DNA of 46,417 nt, taken from positions 1 to 46,417 of the IMG/VR virus record IMGVR_UViG_3300045411_000353. One strand, 5' to 3'. Of the stretch, positions 14,090-46,417 are shown one piece after another. The DNA is from a virus. The notes under the pieces were generated by a model, which was not told where the DNA came from, did not search any database, and saw only the letters and a program-made list of their open reading frames with translations. How positions within the stretch are numbered: position 1 is the first letter of the stretch; every line of letters starts with the position of its first letter. The translations under genes were made by a program, and so were the position numbers.

Positions 14090-14118
14090 GGGGGAACCTC
14101 ACCTCTGTTGGTTGTCAT
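14077..14118 (-). CDS. Possible 13-residue coupling peptide
   Basis: ATG at 14118 overlaps the methyltransferase stop (ATGA) and follows a GGAGGG element inside that gene. The frame encodes MTTNRGEVPPCVA and its stop lies 12 bases past the start of the next gene. Such a mini frame could carry ribosomes from one gene to the next. It may equally be a chance frame. Confidence 0.3.
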   Translation of the reverse strand: MTTNRGEVPPCVA

Positions 14119-15206
14119 AGTAGTCTCCCTCCCCGCAGACAATGCGGACTCATCCAGAGCCGTTCTTGCTTGCGGTTCGCCTTGTTCGCCCCGTCGCTGT
14201 CGGCGCTCTGGTAGGCCGCGTTGGCCTTCCAGGCCACCATGCGCCAGCCCGCCGCGGCCATCTGCTCCACATGCTCCGACTCGTACCCGGCCAGCACGAT
14301 CCGTAATCGTGGATCGTCGCCGTGGGCAAGGCACCACTCCCGCACGCCCGCGGCCACCGTCAAATCCTCGACCGCGTAGAGGCTCGGATCGCGAACCTCG
14401 CCTGAGTATGGCGGGTCGAGGAACACGCCCACGGTGTCACCATGCGCCAGCGCGCCCCGCGTCACAACGCGTTGCCAGTCGCCGCAGCACACCCGCACCC
14501 GCCGCAGGCGGGCGGCGAGAGCACCGAAATAGGCCAGGAGCGCGGCGCGGTCCGCTTGGCAGTTGATGCCCTGATGTCCCTTTAGGTGCAGGCGCTTCCG
14601 GTTGACGCCCTGGCCGGGGTTGCCCAGGTGCGGGAGCTGCCGGTTGACGCCCTTGCCGGAGTCGCCCAGGTGCGGGCGCTTCCGGTTGACGCCCTTGCCG
14701 GGGTCGCCCAGGTGCGGGAGCTTCCGGTTGACGCCCTTGCCGGGGTTGCCCCCGACGACCTCGCCGCCAACCACACTCCACGGCCCGGTGCCCGAACACC
14801 ACCCGCTCCCGATCCATAGGCATTGACCCCAAAGCCAAAAGCCCGCGACTTGGGCGTCGTAGTAGTCTGGGGCGGCCTCCAGTTTGGCGAGCCGCTCCCG
14901 ACCTGTGTTTACAAGCCACAGGTGCCGCGCCAACAAATCCGTCTCGTTGACTGGCCAGTCCGCATACTGCGCCACTTCTTCCGGGGCCGCGGCCAGCGCC
15001 CGCCACACGTTACAGATATGCGCGTCCTTGTCGTTGACCGTCTCGACGTGCCCCGTATGCCCCGCGGGACGCCCCAGGAGCACGGCCAGCGAACCGGCAA
15101 ACGGCTCAACATAGTTAGATACGTCACCGAGCGCCGCCCACACTTCTGGAGCGCATCTACTCTTACCACCAAACCAAGGGAAGGGAGCCTTCAATACGTC
15201 CGCCAT
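14115..15206 (-). CDS. DNA adenine N6-methyltransferase (D12/Dam class) with inserted repeat
   Basis: 363 residues, ATG at 15206. Methylates adenine N6 in DNA using S-adenosylmethionine, often to protect phage DNA from restriction. Motifs: PFPWFGGKS (8-16), SAM-binding YVEPFAGSLAVLL (32-44), and catalytic DPPY at 264-267. Between them, residues ~153-208 hold a 15-residue repeat (GKGVNRKLPHLGDP type) in nearly four copies, not part of the core fold, probably in the target-recognition region. Target site unknown. Confidence 0.88.
   Translation of the reverse strand: MADVLKAPFPWFGGKSRCAPEVWAALGDVSNYVEPFAGSLAVLLGRPAGHTGHVETVNDKDAHICNVWRALAAAPEEVAQYADWPVNETDLLARHLWLVNTGRERLAKLEAAPDYYDAQVAGFWLWGQCLWIGSGWCSGTGPWSVVGGEVVGGNPGKGVNRKLPHLGDPGKGVNRKRPHLGDSGKGVNRQLPHLGNPGQGVNRKRLHLKGHQGINCQADRAALLAYFGALAARLRRVRVCCGDWQRVVTRGALAHGDTVGVFLDPPYSGEVRDPSLYAVEDLTVAAGVREWCLAHGDDPRLRIVLAGYESEHVEQMAAAGWRMVAWKANAAYQSADSDGANKANRKQERLWMSPHCLRGGRLL
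14585..14750 (-). repeat. 45-bp tandem repeat inside methyltransferase gene
   Basis: About 3.7 copies of a 45-bp unit, each keeping the frame, encode variants of GKGVNRKLPHLGDP. Differences are mostly single bases (LPHL/RPHL/LHL; NP/DP/DS). In-frame length and near-identity point to expansion by slippage or recombination. Confidence 0.9.
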
Positions 15207-15712
15207 GGCCCCTCCACCACCCGGAACGCGAGCCGCACGACCTCTTCCTCCCGCATGGCTTCCCAGTCGCACCTGTGGAGCGACTCCCACAAAGCACAGA
15301 ACGCACTGCGCGGGCAGAGCACGCCGCAACTACTGCCTTCGGGCGCATAGTAGAGATTCCCGCGCCTGAATATTTCCATCCCCTCGCGCACGGCCTCCTC
15401 CTCCGTGATGCCGCCCAGGCGCTCTAGCCGGGCGTCCTCGGTGGCCTCCAGGGTGAGGCGGGACAGGGAACGGGGCATACGGAGAGAGGAAAACCACCGG
15501 GCGACTTCCCGCCGCGCCGTGGCCTGGTACTCCGGCTCTCCCGTGTCCGTTCCGATCACGAGGTGCGACGGACACCACGTCTCCCTGACCCACAGCCGGT
15601 CTCCGGCCTTCACCTTCAGCCACCGCCGCGACCGTCGCCGAGTGACCGACTTGTGCCCCGCCAGAATGGCCCGCACCATCGGGCCGGCAAAGATGATTGC
15701 TCGATCAGTCAT
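15191..15712 (-). CDS. ASCH-domain protein
   Basis: 173 residues. The N-terminal half has the ASCH-type pattern seen in many phages: FAGPMVRAILAGHKSVTRRR followed by VKAGDRLWVRETW (about residues 34-46). ASCH domains are a PUA-related beta-barrel thought to bind RNA or modified bases. The C-terminal half has three Cys in SSCGVLCPRSAFCALWE. It overlaps the Dam-type start by 16 bases; association of ASCH with nucleic-acid modification genes is common, but the substrate is unknown. Confidence 0.75.
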   Translation of the reverse strand: MTDRAIIFAGPMVRAILAGHKSVTRRRSRRWLKVKAGDRLWVRETWCPSHLVIGTDTGEPEYQATARREVARWFSSLRMPRSLSRLTLEATEDARLERLGGITEEEAVREGMEIFRRGNLYYAPEGSSCGVLCPRSAFCALWESLHRCDWEAMREEEVVRLAFRVVEGPWRTY

Positions 15713-16856: not shown

Positions 16857-17099
16857 TTATCCCTCCTTGGTTGCTGTCCGGCCCAACTCTTCACGGGCTG
16901 CCTTCAGCATCCTTTCGGCAGTGCACGGGCCGCCCGTCCAGTCGAGATTCGACGCCCGCTGCACGATGGCGTTGATTTCCCGCACGGACAGCGCCAGGGC
17001 TTCCTCCAGCTCCGCGATCCTCGCCCTTGCCGCCCGCAAGGCTTCCGCCGCCAGCCGCAGCCCGTCCTCAAGCTCTGCAATGCGCTTGTCCTTGTCCAT
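16857..17099 (-). CDS. Short coiled-coil protein, 80 residues
   Basis: ATG at 17099 overlaps the helicase stop. Heptad pattern in DKDKRIAELEDGLRLAAEAL and RAARARIAELEEALAL, then AIVQRASNLDWTGGPCTAER. Similar in style to the C-terminal coiled coil of the Ead-like neighbour. Function unknown. Confidence 0.55.
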   Translation of the reverse strand: MDKDKRIAELEDGLRLAAEALRAARARIAELEEALALSVREINAIVQRASNLDWTGGPCTAERMLKAAREELGRTATKEG

Positions 17100-18430
17100 C
17101 ACCGACCCTCCTGCATGGCCGTCGCATCCTCGGCCACCATGCTCTGCCCCTTGAACAGGATCAGCGGCAACCGAAACTCGTAGCCGCCGAGCTTGTTCTT
17201 GTCCACCTTGCCCCACAACTTCAGCGCGTCGCCGCCGGCGTCCTTGGCCTTCCGCCGCCAGAGCAGCATGATCACGTCCGCGGCTTGCTCGATCATGCCC
17301 GAGTAGCGCAAGTCGGCCATCGTCGGCCCCTCCCACTCGTCGGCCTCCGTGGCGGCCCGGCGCAACTGCGACATGGCGACGACCGCACAGTCCGCGGCTT
17401 TCGCCAGCTCATGCAGCGCCACGACGATCTTGCTGATTTCCTGCTCCCGGCTCCCTGTCTTGACCGCGGGCGGGCGGACTTCCTCCAGGTAGTCCACGAT
17501 CACGAGGGCAAGTTTGCCCCCTTGCCGCTTGCGCCAGTTCCGGGTTTCGGTGCACAACTCTTCGATGCTGAGGCCGGAGTCCACGACGTCAATCCCGGTG
17601 GGCACCAAGGGTATCCCCTCGGCTAACTCCTCCAGCGGGACGTTGCCGAACCGGATATCCTTGGCGTCGTGCCCGGTGGCGTGCGCGACGATGCGGAAAG
17701 TGAGGCTCTTGCGCGTCGTCTCCGTCGAAATGAACCGCACCGCGGCCCCGGCCTTGGCCGCCTTGACCGCGAAGCTCACGCCCACCGCCGTCTTGCCGCA
17801 CGACGGCCGGGCCCCCACGACGTAGAACGCGCCGGCCAGGAAGCCGCCCACATGCCGATCGAACTCGGGCAGGCCGCTGGGGAGACTCGGGGTGCGCTGG
17901 CCGCTCCGCAGTTCCGCCAGGATTTCTTGGAGCACGACCTGTACGCTCGTCTCGGGCTGGCGGGCAATCTGCGCGCCCAGGGCTTCGAGGTTGGCAAGGC
18001 TTGGGGCCAGCACGTCGCACGCCGGCATCCCCGGCAACCAGGCTTTCGCCAACTCCGCCCCGGCCTTCTGCGCTTCCCGGATGAGCCAGGCGTCCCGGAG
18101 GTGTTGGCATTCCCGCGCACACGCCCAATCAATGCCGCACTCGTGCTCGGTGAGTTCCAGGACCGCCTCTTGCAGCCGCGGACCCGGGCGTTTGGCGGCG
18201 AGGGTTTGGGCCAGGATCGGCCGCGTCCACGTCTGGCCCGCGGCGTGCAACGCGGCCATCGTCTCGAAGATGACCCGGCAGTTCGGCTCCGTGAACATCT
18301 CCGGGCGCAAGCTCGGCGCGCACTGCGAGAACAACTCCGGCCACAGGAGGAAGTCGCCCAGGATGGCCCGCTCGCTCGTCGTCGTGTCCGGCGTCGGGTA
18401 TTTCGTCGGCTTGCGGGTGGCCTCAGGCAT
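17099..18430 (-). CDS. DnaB-like replicative helicase
   Basis: 443 residues. Unwinds DNA 5' to 3' at the phage fork as a hexamer. N-terminal DnaB domain (about 15-110: SERAILGDFLLWPELF, FETMAALHAAGQ); C-terminal RecA-type motor with Walker A GARPSCGKTA (206-215), FISTE (233-237), Walker B LVIVDYLE (309-316), and SQLRRAATE near 365-373. Eight-base overlap with the replisome organiser ahead of it, a partner pair in phages that use host primase and polymerase. Confidence 0.88.
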   Translation of the reverse strand: MPEATRKPTKYPTPDTTTSERAILGDFLLWPELFSQCAPSLRPEMFTEPNCRVIFETMAALHAAGQTWTRPILAQTLAAKRPGPRLQEAVLELTEHECGIDWACARECQHLRDAWLIREAQKAGAELAKAWLPGMPACDVLAPSLANLEALGAQIARQPETSVQVVLQEILAELRSGQRTPSLPSGLPEFDRHVGGFLAGAFYVVGARPSCGKTAVGVSFAVKAAKAGAAVRFISTETTRKSLTFRIVAHATGHDAKDIRFGNVPLEELAEGIPLVPTGIDVVDSGLSIEELCTETRNWRKRQGGKLALVIVDYLEEVRPPAVKTGSREQEISKIVVALHELAKAADCAVVAMSQLRRAATEADEWEGPTMADLRYSGMIEQAADVIMLLWRRKAKDAGGDALKLWGKVDKNKLGGYEFRLPLILFKGQSMVAEDATAMQEGR

Positions 18431-19772
18431 AGTCGCCCTCCGCGCCCTGGCCGGCTTCCCCCTCCGGTGGCGGCGCGGCCACCCCGCCCGGCACGCCGAG
18501 ATTCATCACCGTGGCCCGGCCCAAAGGCGTGGGGAAGTCCAGTTCCGCAAACGGCTTGGGCGGCTCCTTCGCCAGTAACGCCCGCTTGACCTCAGCCAGC
18601 GCCGCGGGCGAGAAATCCGTCGCCAGCGCGGCGCAGATATGCAGGCACCAGTCGGTGAGCTTCATGTCGCCGCGCCGGACCGCGGTGTCCATGCGGCTGT
18701 ATTCCCAGTCCGTCATGGCGAGCAGGCGGTAGATGACGTTCGAGTCGAAGAGCGCGGGCCAGGACTCCACGCGGGCCAGGGCGGTCAGAGGCGACAGGCG
18801 GCGCAACCGCTCGCTCGCGGGCATCCGCGTATAGATGTCTCGCCCGCGCTCGACATGCTCCTCGTCTCGGAACAGCACGGTAAGGTCGTGGTTCCGCAAC
18901 TCCCGATGCCGCGGCTTCCAGTCGTCCTCGCGGTAGCCGAGCAACGCTTCCTCACACTCCGGGTAGCCGTAGGTTTCGATGGCCTTGATGATGCAGTCGA
19001 GGCGCTTGGGGCTGAGGACCATCTTGCGGTCGTTGTGCTCCCACAGGGACAGCCAGAGTTGCCAGAGGGCTTGCACGTCGGGGTCGTCGAGCATGGCGTC
19101 TCTCTTCTCGGCCTTGGTGCGGGGCTTGCGGGGGGGCTTGGCCGGGGCTTCCGGCGCGGCTTCCTCCCGGGATACTTCCGGCTGGCCGAGGGGAAGGAGA
19201 GGTTGGGATGGTGTCTCGTGCACGCGAGCGGGCACGGGCGCGGGTACGTCACGCACGGGCACGCGGTCCCCCCCTAAAGGGGGGGAGGGGGGGTGTTCTT
19301 GCTTTTTCTTTTTCTTTGTATCTGCTTCTGTTTCTGCTTCTGTATCTGTATCTGATCTGTATCTGGTTCCGTTACATAACGCGTTATGTAACGCGTTACT
19401 CTGTCCGTCTCGTAACGCGTTACGGTGGCGAGCCTGCCGTTCTGCGTTGGTGGTGTCAGTGTCGGAAGCCGGTTGCCACCGCCGCCAGTTGGGAAGCGAG
19501 ATCATGCCGTCTGGCCCCTCGACCAGCCAGCCGACGTCAAGCAGGGCAGCGAGGCCGGCCTCTGTCGCTTCTCGTTCGCGGAAGCCCAACAGGCGGGGAA
19601 TGTCGGCGCGCCTGGCTACGCTGCCATCGTCGCGGTTCGTCCGCACAAGGCAGTCAAACCAGACTTGCTTTGATGAGTCGGAAAGCAAGAGGAACTTCGC
19701 ATCCGTGGTAACAGGCTGAATCCAGAGCCGTCGCCAAGGTTGCGTTACGCTACGTTTCTGCGTGTCACTCAA
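18423..19772 (-). CDS. Replisome organiser / helicase-loader-type replication protein
   Basis: 449 residues from a TTG at 19772 seven bases after a G-run; a TTG at 19778 is also in frame. N-terminal ~110 residues look like a winged-helix domain (VWFDCLVRTNRDDGSVARRA, then LLGFREREATEAGLAALLDV). Then a linker encoded by the origin-like repeats (ERQARHRNALRDGQSNALHN and a D/T/E/K-rich stretch), a proline-rich section, and a C-terminal helical domain. This plan matches phage initiators that bind origin repeats within their own gene and load the helicase encoded next. Confidence 0.72.
   Translation of the reverse strand: MSDTQKRSVTQPWRRLWIQPVTTDAKFLLLSDSSKQVWFDCLVRTNRDDGSVARRADIPRLLGFREREATEAGLAALLDVGWLVEGPDGMISLPNWRRWQPASDTDTTNAERQARHRNALRDGQSNALHNALCNGTRYRSDTDTEAETEADTKKKKKQEHPPSPPLGGDRVPVRDVPAPVPARVHETPSQPLLPLGQPEVSREEAAPEAPAKPPRKPRTKAEKRDAMLDDPDVQALWQLWLSLWEHNDRKMVLSPKRLDCIIKAIETYGYPECEEALLGYREDDWKPRHRELRNHDLTVLFRDEEHVERGRDIYTRMPASERLRRLSPLTALARVESWPALFDSNVIYRLLAMTDWEYSRMDTAVRRGDMKLTDWCLHICAALATDFSPAALAEVKRALLAKEPPKPFAELDFPTPLGRATVMNLGVPGGVAAPPPEGEAGQGAEGDYA
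19268..19424. other. Candidate phage replication origin inside the replisome organiser gene
   Basis: Three elements lie together. (1) Three copies of the 10-bp palindrome TAACGCGTTA at 19377-19386, 19389-19398 and 19413-19422, offsets 12 and 24 bp; the first sits in a perfect 22-bp palindrome, 19371-19392. (2) A ~65-base tract (about 19301-19366) that is purine-rich on the minus strand and low in GC for this genome, a likely unwinding region. (3) A hairpin of seven C and seven G with a 4-base loop at 19268-19285, with a second G7 run just after. The location in an initiator gene's linker parallels lambda O/ori. Origin function is inferred. Confidence 0.6.
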
Positions 19773-19789
19773 TGTCAACCCCCCCTAGA

Positions 19790-19838
19790 TGGGACTGACC
19801 GGGGCCAGCTAGGGACCAGCCCCGGCCTGTCAGTCCCA
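19790..19838 (-). promoter_or_regulatory. Large stem-loop in the leader of the replisome organiser gene
   Basis: Arms of 9 bp (TGGGACTGA / TCAGTCCCA) and 7 bp (CCGGGGC / GCCCCGG) stack with a 4-base bulge and a 13-base loop. It lies between promoter P3 and the start codon, ending about 18 bases before it and next to the G-run used as ribosome binding site. It could control translation, attenuate transcription or protect the message. No U-tract follows. Confidence 0.5.
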
Positions 19839-19905
19839 GGGTTGCCGGCTTGCGCCGGGCACTGCCCACCCGACCGGCCCGTCGGACAGGACAACCCCCG
19901 AATTG

Positions 19906-44378: not shown

Positions 44379-46417
44379 CTACTTGCGGTCGATGACCAGT
44401 TCGATCCCGGTGATGTGCACCCAAGCCGCCGCGCCGGTCGTGCAGTCGAAACGGGCATAGTACTGGTAACCCGTGGCCACCGTACTCACCGCGGCCTCCG
44501 AGTTGTCGTACAGGTCCACGTCCGCCGTCACGCCGGCCCAGCCCGTATGGGCGTCGATCTCCCCATCCACGGGAACACTGGCCGCGTGGAGATTGCGCCG
44601 CAGACTGGCCGCCAGCGTCACCGCGTTGCCCACGCTCGCCTCGATGGAGCCGATGATCCGCCAACTCTGGATCACGTCGCCCACCTTGAGGCCCTCAATG
44701 TGGATGACGAGCATGGCGTTGGCTTCGTTGGGCGCACAGTACCATGACCCGGTCGCCTGTGGCACCCAGTCCGGCGTGCCGCCCGCGAACGACGTACACT
44801 GCCCGGCATTGAAGACCATGCTCTGCGCCAGCTTGTGTCCGGTGTAGGTGAAATTCCCCGTCACCGTCGTCAGGATGCCGGCCGCGCCGATCCCGACCGC
44901 GGAAGTGTTGGCATCACCGATCTGGATCGTGCCATCGGCCAGCGCTCCCGTGGCATTGCCGGCCCGGATCGAGATATTCCCGCCGACCGCCCCTACGCCC
45001 GCCCCGATCGTGCCCCCACCGCCGGCCCAGATGTTGACCGCGCCGCCCGCGCCGGGAGCACCGCCGCCCAGGAGGGCCGCCGCGCCGCCCCTGCCGCCGT
45101 ACAACGAGAGGACGCCGCCGTCGCCCGCGTTCTGCGGATTCGGATCACCCGCGCCGCCCGTGCCCGCCTGCATGGTTACCGCGCCGCCGTTGCCACCGAT
45201 GGCCGTGGCCGTGGCCTCGCCGCCCGCGCCGCCCAGGAGGCGGAACAGATAGCCGCCGAACGTCGCCGGGGCTGGATCAATGTCGATGTCCAGTGCCCCG
45301 TCGCCGTTGATGCTCAGGTTGCCCGCCATCGTGAGGTTGGCCCCGGTCACGTCCAGGCCGGCTTCGGCGTCGAGACTGACCAGCGCCCGCACCGCCGTGG
45401 TATTGGAGTCGCCCAGGACCACGTTGCCGTCCGCGCCGCCGCCCGAGGCATTGCCGCCCCGGATGTAGGTATGGCCGCCGTTGTTCCCAGCGCCCGCGCC
45501 CACGACGCCGCCCGCCCCGCCCGCCGCCACCGTCACGTCGCCGCCCGGACCCGCGGTCGAGGCGGCATCATCCCCCGAGGCGCCGCCCGCCCCGCCCGAC
45601 AGCCCGGCGTTGCCGCCGGTACCGCCATTTTGCGCGGCAGGCAGTGTTGCCCCGTCGCCGCCTGCCCCTGCCCCCAACGTGAGTTGACCGCCGTTGCCGC
45701 CCGCCCCGAGGCCCACGGAAGCACCACCTGCTCCTGCCACCGCGGCCAGGGCATACCCGACCGCTTCCACCGCGGCCGTGGCATTGTTGAGGGTCAACGC
45801 GCCCAGGCCCTGAATGATCAGGCCCGCGCCCATCCTCAAGTTGGCCATCGTCACATCGAGACCGTTCTTGGCGTCCACGTTCCCGTTGAACGTCGCCTGG
45901 CCGTCGCCGGTGACCGAAAAGAGAACGCTCGTTGCGGCATCCTGGATCTCCACGCCCGTGGTATTCGTCGCGGTCCCGACCCGCAGCACCGTCTCTTCGT
46001 TGACGTTGAGGTTGTTGAAGATGAGGTCGCCCGTGATGGACTCGCAGGTCGAGTTCGTCCCGTCGTGGTAGCAGGTCACGTCCGCCCCTGCGCCGATCGA
46101 CAGGCGCGCGTTGTCCGCGTCGATGTCCACTCCCCCGGTCACATCGAGGTTCCCGGGGATGTCCGCCTGGCCGGCCCCGCCGACCTGGAACAGTGTGCTG
46201 CTCAACGCGTCCTCGATCTCGAAACTCGTGGCGTTGGTATTCGTGCCGAGCTCGAAGAGGAATTGGCCGTCAGCATCCGCGCTTGTGAAGTGCACGTTGC
46301 CGGCCCCCAGCCCCGCATCGTTGCTCTGGAGGAAGACCATGTTCGTGCCGTTGTAGGTCGCCGTGAAATCGGCCCCCGCCCCCCATTTCACGTATTGATG
46401 GTCGGCGTCCACGTCCA
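44379..46417 (-). CDS. Tail-fibre-like glycine-rich protein, C-terminal part (joins 1-776)
   Basis: Continuation of the gene that starts at 776. The shaft contains ~70-residue repeats (GGVDIDADNARLSIGAGADV; VLRVGTATNTTGVEIQDAAT; FELGTNTNATSFEIEDALSS) and then two long Gly-rich regions (AGAGGASVGLGAGGNGGQLT; RGGAAALLGGGAPGAGGAVN), separated by a repeat-type spacer. The last ~160 residues form a non-repetitive tip domain (CTSFAGGTPDWVPQATGSWY to VHITGIELVIDRK). Gly-rich sandwiches of this kind occur in receptor-binding adhesins, so host recognition is plausible. Confidence 0.75.
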   Translation of the reverse strand, partial: DVDADHQYVKWGAGADFTATYNGTNMVFLQSNDAGLGAGNVHFTSADADGQFLFELGTNTNATSFEIEDALSSTLFQVGGAGQADIPGNLDVTGGVDIDADNARLSIGAGADVTCYHDGTNSTCESITGDLIFNNLNVNEETVLRVGTATNTTGVEIQDAATSVLFSVTGDGQATFNGNVDAKNGLDVTMANLRMGAGLIIQGLGALTLNNATAAVEAVGYALAAVAGAGGASVGLGAGGNGGQLTLGAGAGGDGATLPAAQNGGTGGNAGLSGGAGGASGDDAASTAGPGGDVTVAAGGAGGVVGAGAGNNGGHTYIRGGNASGGGADGNVVLGDSNTTAVRALVSLDAEAGLDVTGANLTMAGNLSINGDGALDIDIDPAPATFGGYLFRLLGGAGGEATATAIGGNGGAVTMQAGTGGAGDPNPQNAGDGGVLSLYGGRGGAAALLGGGAPGAGGAVNIWAGGGGTIGAGVGAVGGNISIRAGNATGALADGTIQIGDANTSAVGIGAAGILTTVTGNFTYTGHKLAQSMVFNAGQCTSFAGGTPDWVPQATGSWYCAPNEANAMLVIHIEGLKVGDVIQSWRIIGSIEASVGNAVTLAASLRRNLHAASVPVDGEIDAHTGWAGVTADVDLYDNSEAAVSTVATGYQYYARFDCTTGAAAWVHITGIELVIDRK
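46282..46417. repeat. Right copy of 136-bp terminal direct repeat
   Basis: Matches 1-136 except base 46291 (t, versus a at base 10), changing His here to Leu in the left copy. 46292-46417 is identical to 11-136. Confidence 0.93.

Follow-up and report, generated by a model that had tools for sequence, protein, structure and literature searches.

Introduction

Why would several copies of one short palindrome lie close together in the middle of a protein-coding gene, and does their presence in a gene for replication initiation mean that the phage begins to copy its DNA there? We addressed this question in IMG/VR virus record IMGVR_UViG_3300045411_000353, positions 1 to 46,417 (the whole 46,417-base stretch analysed, hereafter the window), for which an initial annotation had proposed an origin-like architecture. 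There are precedents for such a location. In the lambdoid O gene, the origin is found within the initiator gene, in the same layout (PMC7466680). In plasmid pSK41, Rep uses its N-terminal 120 residues to bind Rep boxes that are located centrally in rep, and the region encoded by the origin forms a linker, with the C-terminal domain separate (PMC5703833). From comparison of sequences, we regard the palindrome cluster as a very probable origin of DNA replication for this phage, situated inside its initiator gene.

The initiator gene and its neighbours

The gene that carries the palindromes encodes a protein of 451 aa when read from a TTG codon, and its true start may be a few codons further downstream. 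The initial annotation had described an initiator-type gene just ahead of a DnaB-like gene, and both assignments are borne out. The protein matches phrog_3926 (E 6e-8) and phrog_2509 (E 1.5e-6), two PHROG families that are both annotated as 'replication initiation protein', and the product of the adjacent gene matches Pfam DnaB_C (E 1e-43) and phrog_19 (E 4.5e-63). Upstream of the initiator gene are an exonuclease VIII-like gene and a RecT gene. The genes and the domain concerned are:

18423..19778, minus strand: gene for the replication initiator, 451 aa when counted from TTG (phrog_3926, phrog_2509)
19470..19721, minus strand: section coding for the winged-helix N-domain (residues ~20-103), which presumably reads the repeats
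17099..18430, minus strand: next gene downstream, for a DnaB-like replicative helicase

The AlphaFold model of the initiator is poor overall (mean pLDDT 55.6), with a confident section at residues 21-100 (pLDDT mostly 77-92) that is predicted to form a winged helix. Plasmid initiators are among the PDB matches of this N-domain model, through their own N-domains (4pta, 4pt7 and 5kbj, with Z 7.2 for each), and all of the PDB matches are at the level common to winged helices (Z 7.2-7.6), many of them tied. Its matches in a viral structure library include phage replisome organisers and replication initiators. We found no close relatives of the window's initiator and DnaB-like proteins among viral contigs, and none of the initiator among annotated phages.

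Elsewhere in the window, a 677-aa protein (44379-46412) bears a weak resemblance to cyanophage proteins, and an ORF for a D12-type adenine methyltransferase (14115-15329) contains an in-frame tandem peptide repeat near its middle, with about four GKGVNRKLPHLGDP-like copies.

A 12-bp-phased array of palindromes

A motif scan found the three TAACGCGTTA copies where the initial annotation had placed them, starting at 19377, 19389 and 19413 with consecutive offsets of 12 and 24 bp. No further copy occurs in the window, and there was none in 100 dinucleotide shuffles of it. The longest palindrome had been given as 22 bp and in fact measures 24 bp. The elements of the cluster, with the one other half-site in the initiator gene that we list, are:

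19370..19423, no strand assigned: iteron array of 12-bp-phased GTAACG/CGTTAC half-sites, presumed initiator-binding sites
19370..19393, no strand assigned: perfect 24-bp palindrome CGTTACATAACGCGTTATGTAACG, the sole perfect palindrome of at least 16 bp in the window
19377..19386, no strand assigned: TAACGCGTTA copy 1
19389..19398, no strand assigned: TAACGCGTTA copy 2, core of GTAACGCGTTAC at 19388-19399
19413..19422, no strand assigned: TAACGCGTTA copy 3, core of GTAACGCGTTAC at 19412-19423
19743..19748, minus strand: lone GTAACG half-site close to the gene's 5' end, possibly due to chance

The array can be read as 12-bp units that begin at 19370, 19382, 19394, 19406 and 19418 (CGTTACATAACG, CGTTATGTAACG, CGTTACTCTGTC, CGTCTCGTAACG and CGTTACGGTGGC, in that order), the first two of which make up CGTTACATAACGCGTTATGTAACG. 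Five of the window's 12 GTAACG/CGTTAC half-sites fall within 19370-19423. The array sits ~350 bp inside the initiator gene, where it codes for residues ~119-136, past the winged helix (20-103) and ahead of the C-terminal part. Disorder is predicted for residues 128-209, a section that holds the end of the repeats together with the AT-rich tract described below.

Selection on the DNA of the array

Each palindrome is translated as Asn-Ala-Leu (NAL), and the leucine codon is TTA in all three. Elsewhere in the window's predicted genes, TTA accounts for 7 of 1126 leucine codons (0.6%), a count that depends on a rough, automatic gene set and leaves a large margin. When residues 111-150 were redrawn synonymously 200,000 times according to the codon usage of the window, one site appeared in 269 draws and two sites never did. 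The use of TTA in all three leucine codons and the absence of any redraw with two sites lead us to conclude that selection acts on the DNA of the array rather than on the encoded peptide.

Other phages point the same way. Some genes read the palindrome as NAL and others as VTRY, and both frames are found within each of two loci (L005 and L012). Several phages (L004, L043, L084 and L128) have the repeats immediately behind the stop of the N-domain gene, so that the array cannot owe its retention to the peptide it would encode. The products of two of these genes (L004 and L084) match phrog_2447, which is a replication initiation family.

Sequences flanking the array

The initial annotation had also reported a purine-rich, GC-poor tract beside the palindromes, and a hairpin with a second G7 run.

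19299..19364, minus strand: AT-rich tract, purine-rich on the coding strand, GC 33%, the presumed unwinding element
19268..19293, plus strand: C7-TAAA-G7-A-G7, a hairpin and possible G-quadruplex of doubtful role

The tract is real. Its GC content is 33% against ~66% for the window, pyrimidines make up 79% of its plus strand (the coding strand being correspondingly purine-rich), and its best 60 bp surpass every other 60-bp stretch of the window in AT content, at a distance of a few bases to tens of bases from the array. The hairpin and the second G7 run are likewise present in the sequence, and it is their structural significance that does not stand: the DNA folds about as well as its composition predicts (z -1.0, with a fold at least as good in 26 of 200 shuffles), and the GC-rich window has some 15 sites with G4-type motifs. 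A functional part for the hairpin in the origin is thus unsupported by its comparison with shuffles. The idea that it belongs to a ubiquitous dispersed palindromic repeat is likewise unsupported, as it was absent from 199 sampled genomes of one phylum (that of G006) at up to one mismatch. GC skew, which had been put forward as a check on the origin, is flat at the array and gives no origin signal.

We also observed a strong stem-loop on the minus strand at 19791-19838, between the upstream gene and the start of the initiator gene (RNA fold of 19785-19850: -36.1 kcal/mol, z -2.66), which could possibly be a terminator, an attenuator or an operator.

Recurrence in other phages

Two TAACGCGTTA copies within 20 bp of each other were found at 45 viral loci, 16 of which have the pair inside an initiator N-domain ORF or at most 300 bp after it. 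Pairs of TTACGCGTAA, which consists of the same half-sites in opposite order, lie at initiator N-domain ORFs in five of nine loci, and pairs of the control TAAGCGCTTA, which has the same composition, in none of 12 loci that mostly represent one family. Initiators were detected by iterative HMM searches from seven initiator N-domains; this detection is incomplete, and several undetected loci that are initiator-like by eye were left uncounted. Given this one-family control and the presence of near-duplicate loci (such as L017/L038, L027/L041 and L004/L043), these counts refer to loci and not to independent lineages. N-domain searches that started from L131 and L018 gave little or no matches. The search for related phages with TAACGCGTTA at the same gene position, proposed in the initial annotation, found none close enough to represent the window's own lineage.

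Three GTAACG copies at exact 12-bp spacing lie inside initiator ORFs at 29 of the 80 loci examined. A spacing of 15 bp suits the reading frame just as well, and there the count is 0 of 80. Tail proteins with GNVT repeats account for many of the other 12-bp loci, and several others resemble initiators missed by the HMMs. In a comparison of 29 loci, half-sites of the same orientation are most often offset by 12 bp (28 pairs), 24 bp (23) and 21 bp (19), with low counts at 9 bp (5), 15 bp (2) and 18 bp (0). The best 50-bp AT content at these loci, some of which are related, averages 0.58 after the repeats vs 0.48 before them (Wilcoxon p 2e-4). A general purine excess downstream of the repeats was not borne out (p 0.42), and only AT-richness is supported. 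As far as sequence comparison can tell, the GTAACG word at 12-base spacing recurs in the corresponding gene of many phages that otherwise differ from one another.

Some occurrences of these words have other settings. Peptide repeats of the type GNVTGNVTG give 12-bp GTAACG arrays by coding alone (L178, L212, L214, L222, L252 and others), and viral proteins of this type can mislead motif scans with false hits. A family of viral contigs (L007, L008, L011 and L033) has two ATAACGCGTTAT sites 30 bp apart near TGACCGTTCGTCGG, seemingly in intergenic DNA outside initiators, and two Treponema contigs (L053 and L105) have long 21-bp tandem arrays that contain TAACGCGTTA.

Samples that were assembled independently of the motif show how far this word extends. 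Among 247 Actinomycetes genomes, 17 have a phrog_3926 match, and three of these 17 have a GTAACG cluster. A second sample comprised 22 named phages reached via N-domain similarity. GTAACG clusters with offsets of 12-13 are found in Xanthomonas phages SAC, Olaya and CP2 and in the environmental phage ctnlZ23; epsilon15, phiPSA1 and Carin1 have GCGGAC/TCCGCA words within the initiator gene; Propionibacterium phage B22 has repeats right behind a short N-domain gene; and others have few repeats. In 37 deduplicated linker regions taken from these samples, a 6-mer is repeated at offset 12 in 21 cases (mean 4.9 and maximum 10 in 200 codon shuffles), and offsets of 10 and 15 are raised too, partly through GACCC-type repeats. 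These samples suggest that linker repeats are common in such genes and variable in sequence, with GTAACG as one recurrent class.

Repeats of other sequence were seen at further loci. Initiators resembling that of epsilon15 (L156, L157, L158 and L161) carry GCGGAC/TCCGCA repeats in place of GTAACG. GCAATG at 12-bp spacing is found in initiator-like linkers (L386, L399, L401, L423 and L441) and is probably another 12-bp iteron class; seven of its 80 loci are initiator genes with SNAxSNAx linkers, so that it cannot serve as a neutral control.

Alternative explanations

The palindromes could form an operator through which a repressor, or the initiator itself, regulates the initiator/DnaB operon, with no origin function. 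The palindrome can evidently take such a role, since at least 14 bacterial genomes have pairs of the form GTAACGCGTTAC-N3-GTAACGCGTTAC immediately ahead of genes for MazE-like antitoxins (PF11455), where the pairs are likely autoregulatory operators. We recorded these pairs at L050, L060, L062, L075, L085, L087, L097 and L101, and further at L102, L104, L107, L110, L111, L112 and L113; the copies are nearly always 3 bp apart, and 6 bp apart in L111. The palindrome alone is therefore no marker of an origin; its location and the 12-bp array are. Whereas the operators lack 12-bp phasing (their offset is 15 bp) and precede the antitoxin gene, the sites of the window have offsets of 12 and 24 bp and lie well inside the 451-aa gene, beside the AT-rich tract, and in other phages the palindromes recur in the initiator linker and not at promoters. 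We thus regard a purely regulatory role as unlikely; autoregulation of the initiator via the array would be compatible with an origin at the same place.

Somewhat less probable again is that the sites serve a different cis function, such as incompatibility or copy-number control, partition, recombination or the binding of a host protein, and that replication begins elsewhere. The lack of a skew signal tying initiation to the array would suit this explanation, which fits poorly with an array location that is specific to initiator genes and has an AT-rich tract alongside. A third possibility, that the repeats simply follow from the coding of a repetitive linker peptide, seems highly improbable, even though NAL is repeated in the linker peptide, the linkers of such proteins are of low complexity, and tail proteins with GNVT repeats also yield 12-bp GTAACG arrays. 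Coding alone would explain neither the rare TTA in all three sites and the failure of synonymous redraws to give two, nor the reading of the same DNA in two frames at other loci, nor the arrays that stand outside the N-domain gene.

Comparison with known origins and proposed mechanism

Taken as an origin, the locus resembles those of lambda and the Stx phages, in which mid-gene iterons are followed by an AT-rich region and the N-domain is encoded upstream (PMC7466680), and in which the helicase function is likewise supplied by a neighbouring module. The differences concern the parts. Lambda/Stx origins have four to six O-binding iterons of another sequence, whereas the palindromic GTAACG array of the window is phased at 12 bp; the gene beside the window's initiator encodes the DnaB helicase itself and not a P-type loader as in lambda; and a PHROG search up to E 0.1 returned other initiation families without the O-like one, at a sensitivity of HMMER that leaves distant kinship possible. 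The modelled N-domain resembles initiator structures of the pSK41/pTZ2162 type, a likeness confined to the common winged helix and tied with many others (Z 7.2-7.6). Unlike pSK41 Rep, the window protein has no match to Pfam RepA_N up to E 0.1, and the iteron sequence differs.

The initiators of PHROG 3926/2447/2509/9474, whose annotations are based on homology, are also among the closest known systems; the window protein matches two of these families (phrog_3926 and phrog_2509), and relatives carry GTAACG arrays in the gene or right after it. We found no paper in the open-licence literature that describes a GTAACG array as the origin of these initiators. Salmonella phage epsilon15, phiPSA1 and Carin1 have an N-domain homologous to that of L133 and short in-gene repeats of the other word, GCGGAC/TCCGCA.

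The repeats of the window are thus located within the initiator coding region between the N- and C-terminal domains, are maintained as DNA (rare codons, redraws, two frames and out-of-gene copies) and adjoin an AT-rich region, as expected of an intragenic iteron origin. The origin-in-initiator reading of the initial annotation is supported by protein family, winged helix, codon evidence, enrichment across phages and an AT-rich tract in the lambda order. We assign a probability of about 0.8 to an intragenic iteron origin for theta replication, at which the initiator would bind the array, the tract would unwind and the DnaB-like helicase would be recruited. Weighing against this reading are the flat GC skew, the absence of close relatives among the phages searched, the detection of initiators at no more than 16 of the 45 palindrome-pair loci, the use of the same palindrome in apparent MazE-type operators, and the GTAACG cluster in just 3 of 17 actinobacterial genomes with a phrog_3926 match.

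Because the window has every sequence-level element of the lambda and pSK41 plan, we infer the following course of initiation. The winged-helix N-domain would bind the 12-bp-phased array (19370-19423) in the DNA that encodes its own linker, with several initiator molecules sitting side by side. The resulting complex would open the adjacent AT-rich, purine-asymmetric tract (19299-19364), where unwinding would start, and the C-terminal part of the initiator would recruit the phage's own DnaB-like helicase, the product of the gene that follows.

Conclusion

The architecture itself is an ordinary one with good support from sequence; it is newly recognised in this phage, with a recurrent iteron class that seems worth systematic study. 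We found no report of GTAACG or TAACGCGTTA as a phage origin in the open-licence literature, and the wider literature may differ. The chances are about even that 12-bp GTAACG/CGTTAC repeats constitute a widespread iteron class, shared by the initiators of many unrelated phages and of their bacterial hosts, that travels with the winged-helix N-domain module and is one of several such classes, GCAATG and the TCCGCA type being others.

The locus provides a concrete predicted origin for an uncultured phage for which no close relatives were found, and the repeat and its layout point to likely origins in many other phages with unmapped initiation sites. If N-domain and repeat class do move together, phage origins could become predictable and classifiable, as they are for iteron plasmids, and sequence alone could then suffice to place the origins of a great many uncharacterised phages and to assign them to compatibility groups.
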